This document shows positions 38,003 through 47,008 of a DNA stretch of 64,000 nt, piece after piece. Under the pieces are notes generated by a model. That model was not told where the DNA came from. It saw only the letters and a program-made list of their open reading frames with translations, and ran no database searches. The DNA lies in contig JAJFKW010000006.1 of assembly GCA_021773015.1 (NCBI GenBank), forward strand, positions 248,001-312,000. Reading direction: 5' to 3'. The translations under genes and the position numbers were made by a program. The DNA is from Woeseia sp. (GTDB taxonomy: Bacteria > Pseudomonadota > Gammaproteobacteria > Steroidobacterales > Woeseiaceae). Position 1 is the stretch's first letter, and each line of letters opens with the position of its first letter.

Positions 38003-39073
38003 ATGATGAAGCGCATCGCAACGTTGGTCGTGGCAATATTCTGCTCCTCGCCAGATTTAGCCTGCTACGCAAAGGACCAGCCACTTTTTCTCGACGATAC
38101 GATATTGCAGGCAACGCTAACGGCGCCGCTTTCCGTAGCGTATGGACAAAAAGAGCAGGAAGATAGGGACTTCTTGCGCGGTCGTTGGGAATACCTAGAC
38201 GACGCTGGAAAGCCCCAACCGTTAGCGGTATCGATTCGCGCCCGTGGAAATTTTCGCCGGCTTAATTGCGATTTGCCGCCATTACAGTTGAATTTCAAGA
38301 AATCTGAAGTCGGCGACTCCGTCTTTGCTGGCCAGAATAAGCTGAAACTTGTTTCCCCCTGCGCCTATGGCAAGAATCATCAACAGCGACTGATACTCGA
38401 ATATCTTGCTTATCGAACATTAGAAGTACTGACCGAGCACAGCCTGCGCACTCGACTACTAAAGCTGAACTACGTGGATGAGCGCCAATCCTTAAAGCTA
38501 TGGTCACACCTAGCATTCCTAATCGAGGATACTGACGAGATGGCGCGCCGCCTGAGCATGCAGCGTGCTCGTTTGCCGAAAGTTAATTCGGTGCAGTTAG
38601 ACAAATACTCGATGGCGCTTGTTGAGATTTTTCAGCTACTCATTGCCAACAATGATTATTCACTTCTCCGCGGGCAACCGGACGCACCGTGTTGTCACAA
38701 CATTGACATCGTTGGATCCGACGACGCCAGCAACAACCTAATACCAATTCCTTACGATTTCGATTTCTCCGGGCTTGTCAACGCACCGTATGCGCGCCCG
38801 CAGCGCAATATGCGCATTCGTACCGTCCGCACCAGAAAATATCGCGGGCGTTGTGTACCGCCAGATGTATGGGATCAAGTAGTAAAGCACGTTCAATCGA
38901 AACAACTGGAAGTTAACGCCGTTTACGAGGACTCAGCCGAATTGAACGCAAGCATGAAGCGGAAAACATTAAGATATATCCGCGCCTTTTTCGAGACAAT
39001 TGACAATCCACAAAGTTTGCAGCGCAAAGTGTTTTCGCAGTGCCGCGGCCAAAAATATGTTTCTCCCAATTAA
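38003..39073 (+). CDS. Exported CotH-like putative kinase
   Basis: I cannot name a precise family. The 356-residue precursor has a signal peptide (MMKRIATLVVAIFCSSPDLACYA). Features that recall CotH-type atypical protein kinases: an N-terminal beta-rich part with SIRARGNFRR (about 77-86) and NKLKLVSPC (Lys113/Lys115); a helix with LEYLAYRTLEVLTEHSLRTRLL; and near the end ANNDYS (Asn216-Asn217-Asp218), CHNI (232) and PIPYDFDFSGLVNAPYA (Asp252, Asp254), resembling the catalytic Asp and metal-binding DxD of CotH. Kinase function is therefore plausible but inferred. Its end overlaps the next gene by 17 bases, indicating coupled translation with a phosphatase. Cys residues could form disulfides in the periplasm. 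Confidence 0.6.
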   Translation: MMKRIATLVVAIFCSSPDLACYAKDQPLFLDDTILQATLTAPLSVAYGQKEQEDRDFLRGRWEYLDDAGKPQPLAVSIRARGNFRRLNCDLPPLQLNFKKSEVGDSVFAGQNKLKLVSPCAYGKNHQQRLILEYLAYRTLEVLTEHSLRTRLLKLNYVDERQSLKLWSHLAFLIEDTDEMARRLSMQRARLPKVNSVQLDKYSMALVEIFQLLIANNDYSLLRGQPDAPCCHNIDIVGSDDASNNLIPIPYDFDFSGLVNAPYARPQRNMRIRTVRTRKYRGRCVPPDVWDQVVKHVQSKQLEVNAVYEDSAELNASMKRKTLRYIRAFFETIDNPQSLQRKVFSQCRGQKYVSPN

Positions 39074-40943
39074 ACTGAAACCCTGTGTAGCCATCGCGCT
39101 TATTTGCCTGCCGTTTGTATGCATGCAGGCGGTAAATGCTGATCAATGGCGATGGGATGGCGTTGATAGAGTCGTTGCCATTGCTGATATTCATGGTGCC
39201 TATCCAGCCTTCGTCGAATTGCTACATGCGACGGATCTTATCGACGAAGACCTCAAATGGGCCGGCGGCACGAATCATCTGGTTAGTCTTGGTGACTTGT
39301 TGGATCGCGGCTCGCAATCTCGCGCAGTTATGGACATTTTGATCCGCTTGCAGCACGAAGCCGATGCAGCCGGTGGTCGTGTACACGTCGTTGCCGGCAA
39401 TCACGAGTTGATGAATGTAATTGGTGATCTTCGTTACGTATCCGATGCCGAGTATTTAGCTTTTTCTACCGACGAAACCCACGCGATGCGAGATCAAGCT
39501 TACACGAATTTCGTAAATCTGCGATCGCACCTGGACATGGCTGAAAGCACGGATCGCGACAGCTTCGACAAACAATTTCCCGATGGTTTTTTCGCGCACC
39601 GTGCTGCCTTCTCTGCCAAAGGGCATTACGGTAAATGGATATTGTCGATGCCAGCCGTCGTTGTCGTCAATGATATCGCTTTTGTTCACGGTGGCTTACC
39701 GGAGATGGTGAGCAAACAAAGCCTTGAGGCGTTAAACGACGAATACCGAAGCACCGTTAGCGAATTCTTACAGCTTTGGTACGACCTGACCAAAGCGGCA
39801 GTACTGCCAAATAATTTACTTCACGATCCGAGCGACTTAGCTCGCGATGCAAGCAAATTATTGGAGCTGAGTGACTGCCGGCTACCGCACGCACAGCAAA
39901 CTAATTGCTCCCCATCGGAACAGAACGTCTTCACGCACTCACAGAAGCTTGCGAGATTAATTGCGGTGAGCGACTCGCCAGTCCTTGGTTCAAATGGACC
40001 GCTGTGGTATCGAGGGGCAATCTATTGCCCGACAATCCTTGAAGGCCCGATACTTGATGCCGCACTAAAGCGAATTGGAGCAAATGAGGTCATTGTTGGA
40101 CATACACCAACCACGGATTCTCGTGCGCACACGACGTACGGTGGCAAACTCACGACACTCGACACCGGTATGCTAGTAGAGTACTACGCTGGCCGACCCG
40201 CGGCATTGGTCATAGACGACGGCGAACGCTACGTTCAGTATTTGAGCCCGAACGAAAAACGACAAGTCGTCAAAAACGGAAAAATAGAGGCTTACGGTTT
40301 AACGGAGGATGAATTGCAGCAGGCGCTGATGTCAGGATCGATCGTTAGCGGACATGACATCAGGGGGGACTCTCCAAGAATGGTAGAGCTGACTTACAAC
40401 GGCAAGAAACTCGTTGCCCGACATTATCCAGAAAACCGGCGGCAATGGGACAAGCAGGAGATAGCCGCCTATTCACTCAGTCAATCGTTGGGACTCGAAT
40501 TGGTGCCATTGACCGTTCATCGCACGATTGATGGTTCGCCGGGCGCGCTGCAGCTAGTTAAACCAAAGACGATCAGCGAAAGAGAACGTATTCGCAACAA
40601 TATTCACTTTGCTGGATGGTGCTCAATGCAAGCACAATTCAGTTTGATGCACGTCTGGGATTTGTTGATTGGCAATTCGAGACGAACTGCCGACAATCTC
40701 CTCTACGAAAAGCCGCTTTGGCGCCTCAAAGTCGTGCAGCATAGAGAAGCCTTTGGAAACGCAAAAAAACTCCCCAAAGGACTGCGTACAGAATCTATAT
40801 CGCTTGACCATGCCGTACGCAACGTACTCACAAACCTCAACGAGGAAACGTTACAATCAATAATTGGCAAGTATGTGAGCAGGAAAAAGATACTCGCCCT
40901 GCTGAGCCGTCGCGACGCATTGTTAGAACAGCTAGACGAATAA
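39057..40943 (+). CDS. Exported Shewanella-like PPP phosphatase fused to a degenerate kinase-like domain
   Basis: From the ATG at 39057 the protein has 628 residues with a signal peptide (residues 1-28, ending AVNA). Residues about 38-400 form a PPP phosphatase of the Shewanella-like (Shelph) type: ADIHG (43-47), GDLLDRG (79-85), GNHELMNVIGDLRYV (114-128), FVHGGL (209-214) and VGHTPT (347-352); the metal ligands look intact. Residues about 440-628 recall a PI-kinase/Fam20-like fold: a Lys-rich strand (NGKKLVARHY), a possible alpha-C Glu (QEIAAYSL), a hinge-like GALQLVK, LIGNSRRTADN (537-547) and VVQHREAF (559-566). Active relatives, as I recall them, have N-x-D-R and IDH here; R542 and Q561 suggest lost catalysis. 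Coupled to the upstream CotH-like gene. Confidence 0.75.
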   Translation: MFLPIKLKPCVAIALICLPFVCMQAVNADQWRWDGVDRVVAIADIHGAYPAFVELLHATDLIDEDLKWAGGTNHLVSLGDLLDRGSQSRAVMDILIRLQHEADAAGGRVHVVAGNHELMNVIGDLRYVSDAEYLAFSTDETHAMRDQAYTNFVNLRSHLDMAESTDRDSFDKQFPDGFFAHRAAFSAKGHYGKWILSMPAVVVVNDIAFVHGGLPEMVSKQSLEALNDEYRSTVSEFLQLWYDLTKAAVLPNNLLHDPSDLARDASKLLELSDCRLPHAQQTNCSPSEQNVFTHSQKLARLIAVSDSPVLGSNGPLWYRGAIYCPTILEGPILDAALKRIGANEVIVGHTPTTDSRAHTTYGGKLTTLDTGMLVEYYAGRPAALVIDDGERYVQYLSPNEKRQVVKNGKIEAYGLTEDELQQALMSGSIVSGHDIRGDSPRMVELTYNGKKLVARHYPENRRQWDKQEIAAYSLSQSLGLELVPLTVHRTIDGSPGALQLVKPKTISERERIRNNIHFAGWCSMQAQFSLMHVWDLLIGNSRRTADNLLYEKPLWRLKVVQHREAFGNAKKLPKGLRTESISLDHAVRNVLTNLNEETLQSIIGKYVSRKKILALLSRRDALLEQLDE

Positions 40944-45235: not shown

Positions 45236-45307
45236 TAGAAATAGGACAATCGTTCAACAAATTGATGAGTGCGTTGTAGATTTACTGAATGCACTACGGG
45301 GCAAGTA

Positions 45308-47008
45308 ATGAACCTTAATTCACACAGTATTTGTATGTCAGTTATGACACTTGCGTTCGGTATTGGTATTAGCAAGCCAACATTTGCAATTGATGACCAT
45401 CACGGCGCGGCCAATCAGCAAGCATCGAAGGAATCGCCGGTCCGCGGAATCAAAAGGCAGCGACCGCGCCGATCCGAAAAGCCGGAATTCTATTATCGGT
45501 CAATTGACGGTTCCAACAATAATTTTTACATCGCAGGCATGAATGCGGCACACGGCGAATTAAGGCGATACATGACTGTCGAGTATGCTGACTACGTCTC
45601 ACAAATGGCGGGCATAGATCGTCCGAATGCGCGGCAAATAAGTAATATCGTCGCGAGCCAAATCACGTCAATCGAAAATCGACGCCGCGCAAGTGATTAC
45701 CTGTGGCAGTGGGGACAATTTCTCGATCACGATATTGATTTGACCGATGGTTCAAATCCCGCCGAACTCGCAAACATCGCAATTCCAGCGGGCGACAATC
45801 ATTTTGATCCTAGTGGATCGGGTAACGCTGAATTGAGCTTTAACCGGTCACTGTATTCGCCGTCATCAGGCACTGGCGTTGATAAACCTCGCCAACAAGT
45901 CAATGAAATTACTGGCTGGATTGATGCTTCGAACGTGTACGGTTCAGACATTGAACGCGCTAGCGCACTACGAATGAATGATGGTAGCGGCCGCCTACGC
46001 GTCAGTGAGGGAAATTTCCTGCCATTCAATCATGCGGGATTTCCAAACGCCGGCGGTAATAGCAATCTCTTGTTTCTCGCCGGCGACGTGCGCGCGAATG
46101 AACAAGTCGCCTTGACGGCGATGCACACATTATTTATGCGTGAACACAATCGCGTCGCAAAAAAGATACGACGCCGACATTCACGTCTTAGCGGTGACGA
46201 AGTATATCAACGCGCACGCCGTTTGGTTGCCGCGCAAATGCAAATAATCACTTACAACGAATTCATACCTACATTGCTCGGCAAGAAGGCTCTGAGTAGA
46301 TACCGTGGCTACAAACCAAATGCGGATGCAAGGATCATGAATTCATTCTCTACCGCCGCATTTCGTCTCGGCCATAGTTTATTGAATTCGACAATTCTGC
46401 GCGTAGACAGAAAAGGCAGAGAGGTGGATGCAGGCCATTTACCATTGCGCAGTGCGTTCTTTGCACCACAGGAACTGCTCGATCACGGTATTGAACCCAT
46501 TTTGCGTGGCCTGGCTAAACAAAAAAGCCAAAACCTGGATATTTACGTTGTCGATGATGTCCGGAATTTTCTGTTTGGCGAACCCGGTCGCGGCGGGTTT
46601 GACCTTGCTTCGCTGAACATACAACGCGGTCGAGATCACGGTCTGCCAAGTTACAATGCAGCACGCGCACAAATGGGGCTGGCTATGGTAACTAGCTTTG
46701 CCGAAATATCGGTCGACATCACGGTTCAATCTAGACTATCTCAAGCTTACGGGACGCCAGAATATGTTGATCTTTGGGTCGGCGGCTTGGCGGAAGACCA
46801 CGTGTCTGGAGCGATGGTTGGCCCGTTATTTCTTGCCATTCTAAAACAACAGTTTGAAGCACTTAGAGATGGCGATAGATTTTGGTATCAGCGATCTCTG
46901 AGCAGAGCGGAAAAAGCTCAATTACGCGGTCTGCGACTCGCCCACATCATTCGGCGAAACACGTCAATCGGGCGGGAATTGAAAAACGACGTGTTTCACG
47001 TCAGGTAA
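45308..47008 (+). CDS. Exported animal-type haem peroxidase
   Basis: Peroxidase-cyclooxygenase superfamily protein, 566 residues from the ATG at 45308, with a signal peptide (MSVMTLAFGIGISKPTFA region). A basic linker (KRQRPRRSEKP) follows. Active-site motifs: the distal WGQFLDHDIDLT with Gln, His and the haem-linking Asp; the catalytic Arg region DVRANEQVALTAMHTLFMREHNRVA; and the proximal His in AAFRLGHSLLNS. FDLASLNIQRGRDHGLPSYNAAR is another hallmark. It is secreted or periplasmic and may make hypohalous acids or crosslinks; substrate unknown. Bacterial members are scattered, so horizontal transfer is possible. Confidence 0.93.
   Translation: MNLNSHSICMSVMTLAFGIGISKPTFAIDDHHGAANQQASKESPVRGIKRQRPRRSEKPEFYYRSIDGSNNNFYIAGMNAAHGELRRYMTVEYADYVSQMAGIDRPNARQISNIVASQITSIENRRRASDYLWQWGQFLDHDIDLTDGSNPAELANIAIPAGDNHFDPSGSGNAELSFNRSLYSPSSGTGVDKPRQQVNEITGWIDASNVYGSDIERASALRMNDGSGRLRVSEGNFLPFNHAGFPNAGGNSNLLFLAGDVRANEQVALTAMHTLFMREHNRVAKKIRRRHSRLSGDEVYQRARRLVAAQMQIITYNEFIPTLLGKKALSRYRGYKPNADARIMNSFSTAAFRLGHSLLNSTILRVDRKGREVDAGHLPLRSAFFAPQELLDHGIEPILRGLAKQKSQNLDIYVVDDVRNFLFGEPGRGGFDLASLNIQRGRDHGLPSYNAARAQMGLAMVTSFAEISVDITVQSRLSQAYGTPEYVDLWVGGLAEDHVSGAMVGPLFLAILKQQFEALRDGDRFWYQRSLSRAEKAQLRGLRLAHIIRRNTSIGRELKNDVFHVR

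Follow-up and report, generated by a model that had tools for sequence, protein, structure and literature searches.

CotH-type kinases, Shewanella-like phosphatases, gene clusters that combine CotH with DUF4956, and the control of kinases by pseudokinases are all known. CotH has no known phosphatase and the phosphorylation it carries out may be irreversible, while the source of ATP for secreted kinases of this type is an open question (PMC7821199). Pel operons of Gram-positive bacteria have an accessory cluster that encodes CotH, a polyphosphate polymerase and DUF4956 (PMC7112168), and the pseudokinase Fam20A activates the secretory kinase Fam20C (PMC4421857). Here we describe a cassette, found in a 64,000-nucleotide stretch of DNA from Woeseia sp. 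(the window), in which a putative CotH-like kinase is encoded beside a phosphatase. What is new is this phosphatase partner, the predicted pseudokinase domain that it carries, and the way in which fused and separate kinases replace one another among its relatives; in our search of the open-licence literature, no description of a CotH kinase paired with a PPP phosphatase came up.

The original prediction, made from the window sequence, described two overlapping genes for exported proteins, and both reading frames (P1 and P2) with their 17-base overlap were confirmed (Table 1). The start of P2 is the ATG at 39057, which gives 628 residues; an alternative, longer start at a TTG (39000) is possible. 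As to the signal peptides claimed for both proteins, both N-termini are Sec signal peptide-like under a simple home-made rule, which also accepts 50 of 54 P1 relatives and 87 of 101 P2 relatives; on the strength of these N-termini, P1 and P2 are predicted to be exported and may be periplasmic. A third gene of the cassette, missed in the original prediction, lies on the opposite strand with 12 bases between its end and P2. Its product scores just below the curated cut-off of PF16316 (29.9 bits, E 5.4e-7, against 30.6), and an alphaproteobacterial relative reaches 35.4 bits. The P1-P2 pair is present in a single copy in the window genome. A second P2, with a degenerate kinase domain, is encoded elsewhere on contig C4 (145000-160500; locus L083, 7122-9245, minus strand); it has no P1 nearby, adjoins a TonB-dependent receptor gene and belongs to a clade of 15 such proteins. 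The window also carries an animal-type haem peroxidase gene at 45269-47008 (PF03098, E 1.8e-153).

Table 1. Features of the P1-P2-DUF4956 cassette, in window coordinates.
Feature	Position	Strand	Evidence
P1, exported CotH-like kinase (putative), 356 aa	38003..39073	+	ORF, ATG start
P1 catalytic-loop motif N216-N-D218	38648..38656	+	N216 83/84, D218 81/84 relatives
P1 CCHN (230-233), N233 the presumed Mg-binding Asn	38690..38701	+	N233 84/84; C230, C231 81/84
P1 Y-D-F-D (251-254), equivalent of kinase DFG region and CotH PWDYD	38753..38764	+	D252, D254 84/84; profile alignment
P1/P2 overlap, 17 nt	39057..39073	+	sequence
P2, 628 aa, exported PPP phosphatase with a degenerate kinase-like domain in the same chain	39057..40943	+	ORF; AF2 pLDDT 92.0
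PPP phosphatase domain of P2 (Shewanella-like), residues 34-405 approximately	39156..40271	+	Metallophos 1.1e-12; PDB 2z72 1.7e-31
P2 C-terminal PI4K/Fam20/HipA-like domain, predicted pseudokinase, about residues 425-628	40329..40940	+	TIGR03843 4e-6; PI4KII-alpha Foldseek 5.5e-7
P2 degenerate catalytic loop NSRRTADN (540-547)	40674..40697	+	intact relatives: N-x-D-R-x-x-x-N
DUF4956 multi-pass membrane protein, third cassette gene, convergent with P2	40956..41720	-	PF16316 5.4e-7

Structure prediction returned the kinase fold proposed for the first protein. An AlphaFold (AF2) model of P1, built from 37 relatives, has a mean pLDDT of 90.9, and its top Foldseek match is CotH of Bacillus cereus (5jda, E 1.3e-9). 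Alignment to CotH 5jd9 by VIA-align gave a Z score of 19.9 over 268 residues (rmsd 3.4), compared with about 12-13 for the next-best kinases and about 11-12 for Fam20 structures. The similarity in sequence is remote, and sequence searches with the window protein returned next to nothing. It had no CotH match in Pfam up to E 5, the CotH family (PF08757) was absent from a search of the window's own genome, and 9 of the 37 relatives matched it (best E 2e-6). No match came from a PDB profile search with the P1 alignment or from a plasmid search with P1, and profile-profile comparison with CotH gave a local, low-probability match that was confined to the surroundings of the alpha-C Glu. Global alignment of the two profiles pairs N-x-D...N...P-Y-D-F-D of P1 with N-G-D...N...P-W-D-Y-D of CotH. 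Since P1 has the CotH fold but misses the Pfam cut-off, we call it CotH-like and do not file it as a member of PF08757.

The CotH-like features from which the kinase was first proposed (NKLKL, NND at residues 216-218 and DFD at 252-254) are present, and the active-site residues are almost invariant among 84 P1 relatives. NKLKL occupies residues 112-116, with K115 kept in 81 of the 84; E133, N233, D252 and D254 are invariant, and C89, C120, C284 and C347 are also fixed. D218 is likewise kept in 81; the three relatives in which Glu replaces it are all solo paralogues (L195, L202 and L203). P1 has the catalytic Asp, the presumed Mg-binding Asn and the DFG-type Asp of CotH kinases.

The phosphatase assignment of the second protein also stood. 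The P2 model aligns with 2zbm (Z 31.6, 271 residues, 29% identity), and the full set of Shewanella-like PPP motifs (DxH, GDxxDRG, GNHE and two later His) is complete in P2 and hardly varies across 101 relatives. The solved Shewanella relative is deposited as a protein-tyrosine phosphatase, so that the specificity of the pair may be for Ser/Thr or for Tyr. A plain phosphatase is ruled out by a second, PI4K/Fam20/HipA-type domain at the C terminus, which among P2 relatives matches HipA_2, PI3_PI4_kinase and Fam20C. In the window protein Arg542 takes the place of the catalytic Asp, Gln561 that of the DFG Asp and Tyr457 that of the beta3 Lys, so this domain is a predicted pseudokinase. Our comparison set of 101 distinct P2 proteins comprises 20 in which all three residues are present (intact) and 81 with a degenerate kinase domain; Lys457, which was not a criterion in this sorting, is found in 20/20 of the intact group and 7/81 of the rest. 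The degenerate domain is unlikely to be decaying junk, since its mean pairwise identity among the degenerate proteins is 41% (49% for the PPP domain) and many of its residues are fixed.

The adjacency of P1 and P2, on which the original prediction depended, is conserved within the order and in another, distant class. In an order-level sample of 196 genomes, 42 carry both genes, and the two lie within 5 kb of each other in 38 of these (23 divergent, 8 tandem, 7 convergent). A random-placement simulation gave an expectation of about 0.3, and chance adjacency was rejected. A phylum sample of 398 genomes added one further genome with both genes; together with nine more of its family it forms a set of ten, which on the basis of rpoB we regard as sphingomonad-like Alphaproteobacteria. 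The phosphatase, P1 and DUF4956 genes are side by side in all ten, and the phosphatase there is without a kinase domain. Across the P1-P2 pairs, 49 of 58 have a DUF4956 gene within 6 kb, as do 0/20 intact fusions and 2/23 degenerate P2 genes without P1. Some P1 paralogues are solo or accompanied by DUF4956 only, hence P1 is not always dependent on P2. The folds and the gene linkage are, in our assessment, well supported. Among other neighbourhoods, P1 orthologues at L186-L193 and L198 lack P2 and are convergent with a DUF4956 gene, and several of them adjoin genes that by inspection resemble inorganic-phosphate transporters. In 44 loci of the order, the 6 kb around P2 also include a gene for a protein of unassigned function with a weak LCAT match (L125, 7899-8894).

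Presence of P1 differs with the state of the fused kinase. Where flanking sequence was sufficient for assessment, P1 adjoins none of 13 intact fusions, whereas it adjoins 58 of 72 degenerate ones (14 are without it). Behind this contrast stand only some five switches in kinase state and three in adjacency; with so few evolutionary changes we claim no p-value, and an independent-pairs test, with only 2-4 pairs, had no power. In relatives without P1 the fused P2 domain is predicted to be an intact kinase, in which case the two opposing activities would reside in a single chain.

The intact fusions also have neighbours of their own. Among intact fusions, 11 of 20 adjoin a gene resembling TLC ATP/ADP transporters, compared with 3 of 81 among the degenerate proteins, and the five such neighbours of intact fusions that were scanned all exceeded the Pfam cut-off. 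ATP is not known to be present in the periplasm, which counts against a kinase acting there; the TLC-like neighbour suggests a possible ATP route for an extracytoplasmic kinase. Examples are the loci L072 (5363-8625 and 8790-12459), L115 (9902-13518) and L160 (1269-4973); some of the adjoining TLC-like proteins carry a C-terminal Ig-like domain. Other intact fusions adjoin a gene for an OmpA-family outer-membrane protein (loci L063, 3987-7237; L067, 3907-7136; L177, 9902-13183), which suggests a candidate substrate; those of the OmpA-family proteins that were scanned contain thrombospondin type 3 repeats.

In a phosphatase tree rooted with the alphaproteobacterial proteins, intact fusions are deepest within the Gammaproteobacteria and the degenerate P2 proteins with P1 are nested, several nodes being weak. 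It is possible, though we hold this scenario only tentatively, that the ancestor of this Gram-negative extracytoplasmic system was a single protein with opposing kinase and phosphatase domains, often encoded beside an ATP/ADP-transporter-like gene, and that in one branch the kinase domain decayed to a pseudokinase and the role of writer passed to a separate CotH-like kinase.

The match to a kinase fold and the conserved adjacency make a matched writer and eraser the leading reading. To this extent the module originally predicted stands; its anatomy was incomplete, as the degenerate kinase domain of P2 and the DUF4956 gene had been missed. We propose that the cassette serves reversible phosphorylation outside the cytoplasm and give this reading, in which the enzymatic activities are predicted, a probability of roughly 0.6. 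The target of P1 would be a protein that is exported or lies at the cell surface, and the phosphate that P1 adds would be taken off by the PPP domain of P2. For the pseudokinase domain of P2, docking or control of either P1 or the substrate is the probable role, by analogy with Fam20A and Fam20C. DUF4956 would probably be the link between the system and the inner membrane, and perhaps a link to a phosphate donor.

Alternatively, P1 might phosphorylate a surface glycan, a lipid or a small molecule, or handle polyphosphate, with P2 reversing or trimming the product. In favour of this, the C-terminal domain of P2 is similar to lipid kinases (PI4KII), and enzymes of the PPP type can be promiscuous. 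The occurrence of CotH, DUF4956 and a polyphosphate polymerase beside Pel operons in streptococci and clostridia points the same way (PMC7112168). However, P1 matches the fold of CotH, a protein kinase, better than any other, and no glycan genes (Pel included) or polyphosphate polymerase genes were found among the ORFs neighbouring the window cassette; we consider a non-protein target unlikely, if the most credible of the alternatives. It is improbable that P1 and P2 are merely co-regulated, for example in a phosphate or stress response, and act on different substrates: some P1-DUF4956 loci without P2 do adjoin phosphate-transporter-like genes (by inspection), but P1 and P2 stay neighbours whether their order is tandem, divergent or convergent, and the presence of P1 tracks the loss of the fused P2 kinase. 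Least probable is a CotH-fold P1 with another chemistry, such as AMP transfer, and a P2 that is not its direct eraser, since the catalytic Asp, Asn and DFD pattern is as in CotH and the pairing with a phosphatase persists in two classes, even though kinase-fold enzymes can AMPylate or glutamylate and the catalytic loop of P1 is longer than that of CotH and contains a Cys-Cys pair.

As a proposed cassette for reversible phosphorylation, the locus provides a candidate eraser for a CotH-type kinase, encoded beside that kinase in two bacterial classes, and its relatives offer a candidate ATP/ADP transporter. One phosphatase occurs in a natural series, with an intact kinase, with a pseudokinase and with no kinase. 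Reversible phosphorylation outside the bacterial cytoplasm thereby becomes directly testable in cultivable sphingomonad-like relatives.

Each part of the cassette has a described counterpart. The accessory cluster of Gram-positive Pel operons likewise places a CotH-type kinase gene next to DUF4956, but here the partner is a PPP phosphatase, and polyphosphate polymerase and Pel genes are not adjoining. P2 shares its PPP domain, with all metal-binding and catalytic motifs, with the cold-active Shewanella phosphatase (1v73/2z72) and the eukaryotic SLP/Shelph phosphatases; unlike these, it adds a C-terminal kinase-like domain and is encoded beside a kinase. The combination of an active secreted kinase (predicted for P1) with a partner of kinase fold in which the catalytic residues are missing recalls Fam20C and Fam20A, although the pseudokinase here is fused to a phosphatase and the partnership is a predicted one. 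P1 itself is closest to the spore-coat kinase CotH of Bacillus (5jd9/5jda), with which it shares the fold and the catalytic pattern N-x-D...N...P-[WY]-D-[FY]-D. It differs in being 13% identical, with conserved cysteines and a longer, Cys-Cys-containing catalytic loop, and in being a protein predicted to be exported in Gram-negative bacteria and paired with a phosphatase.
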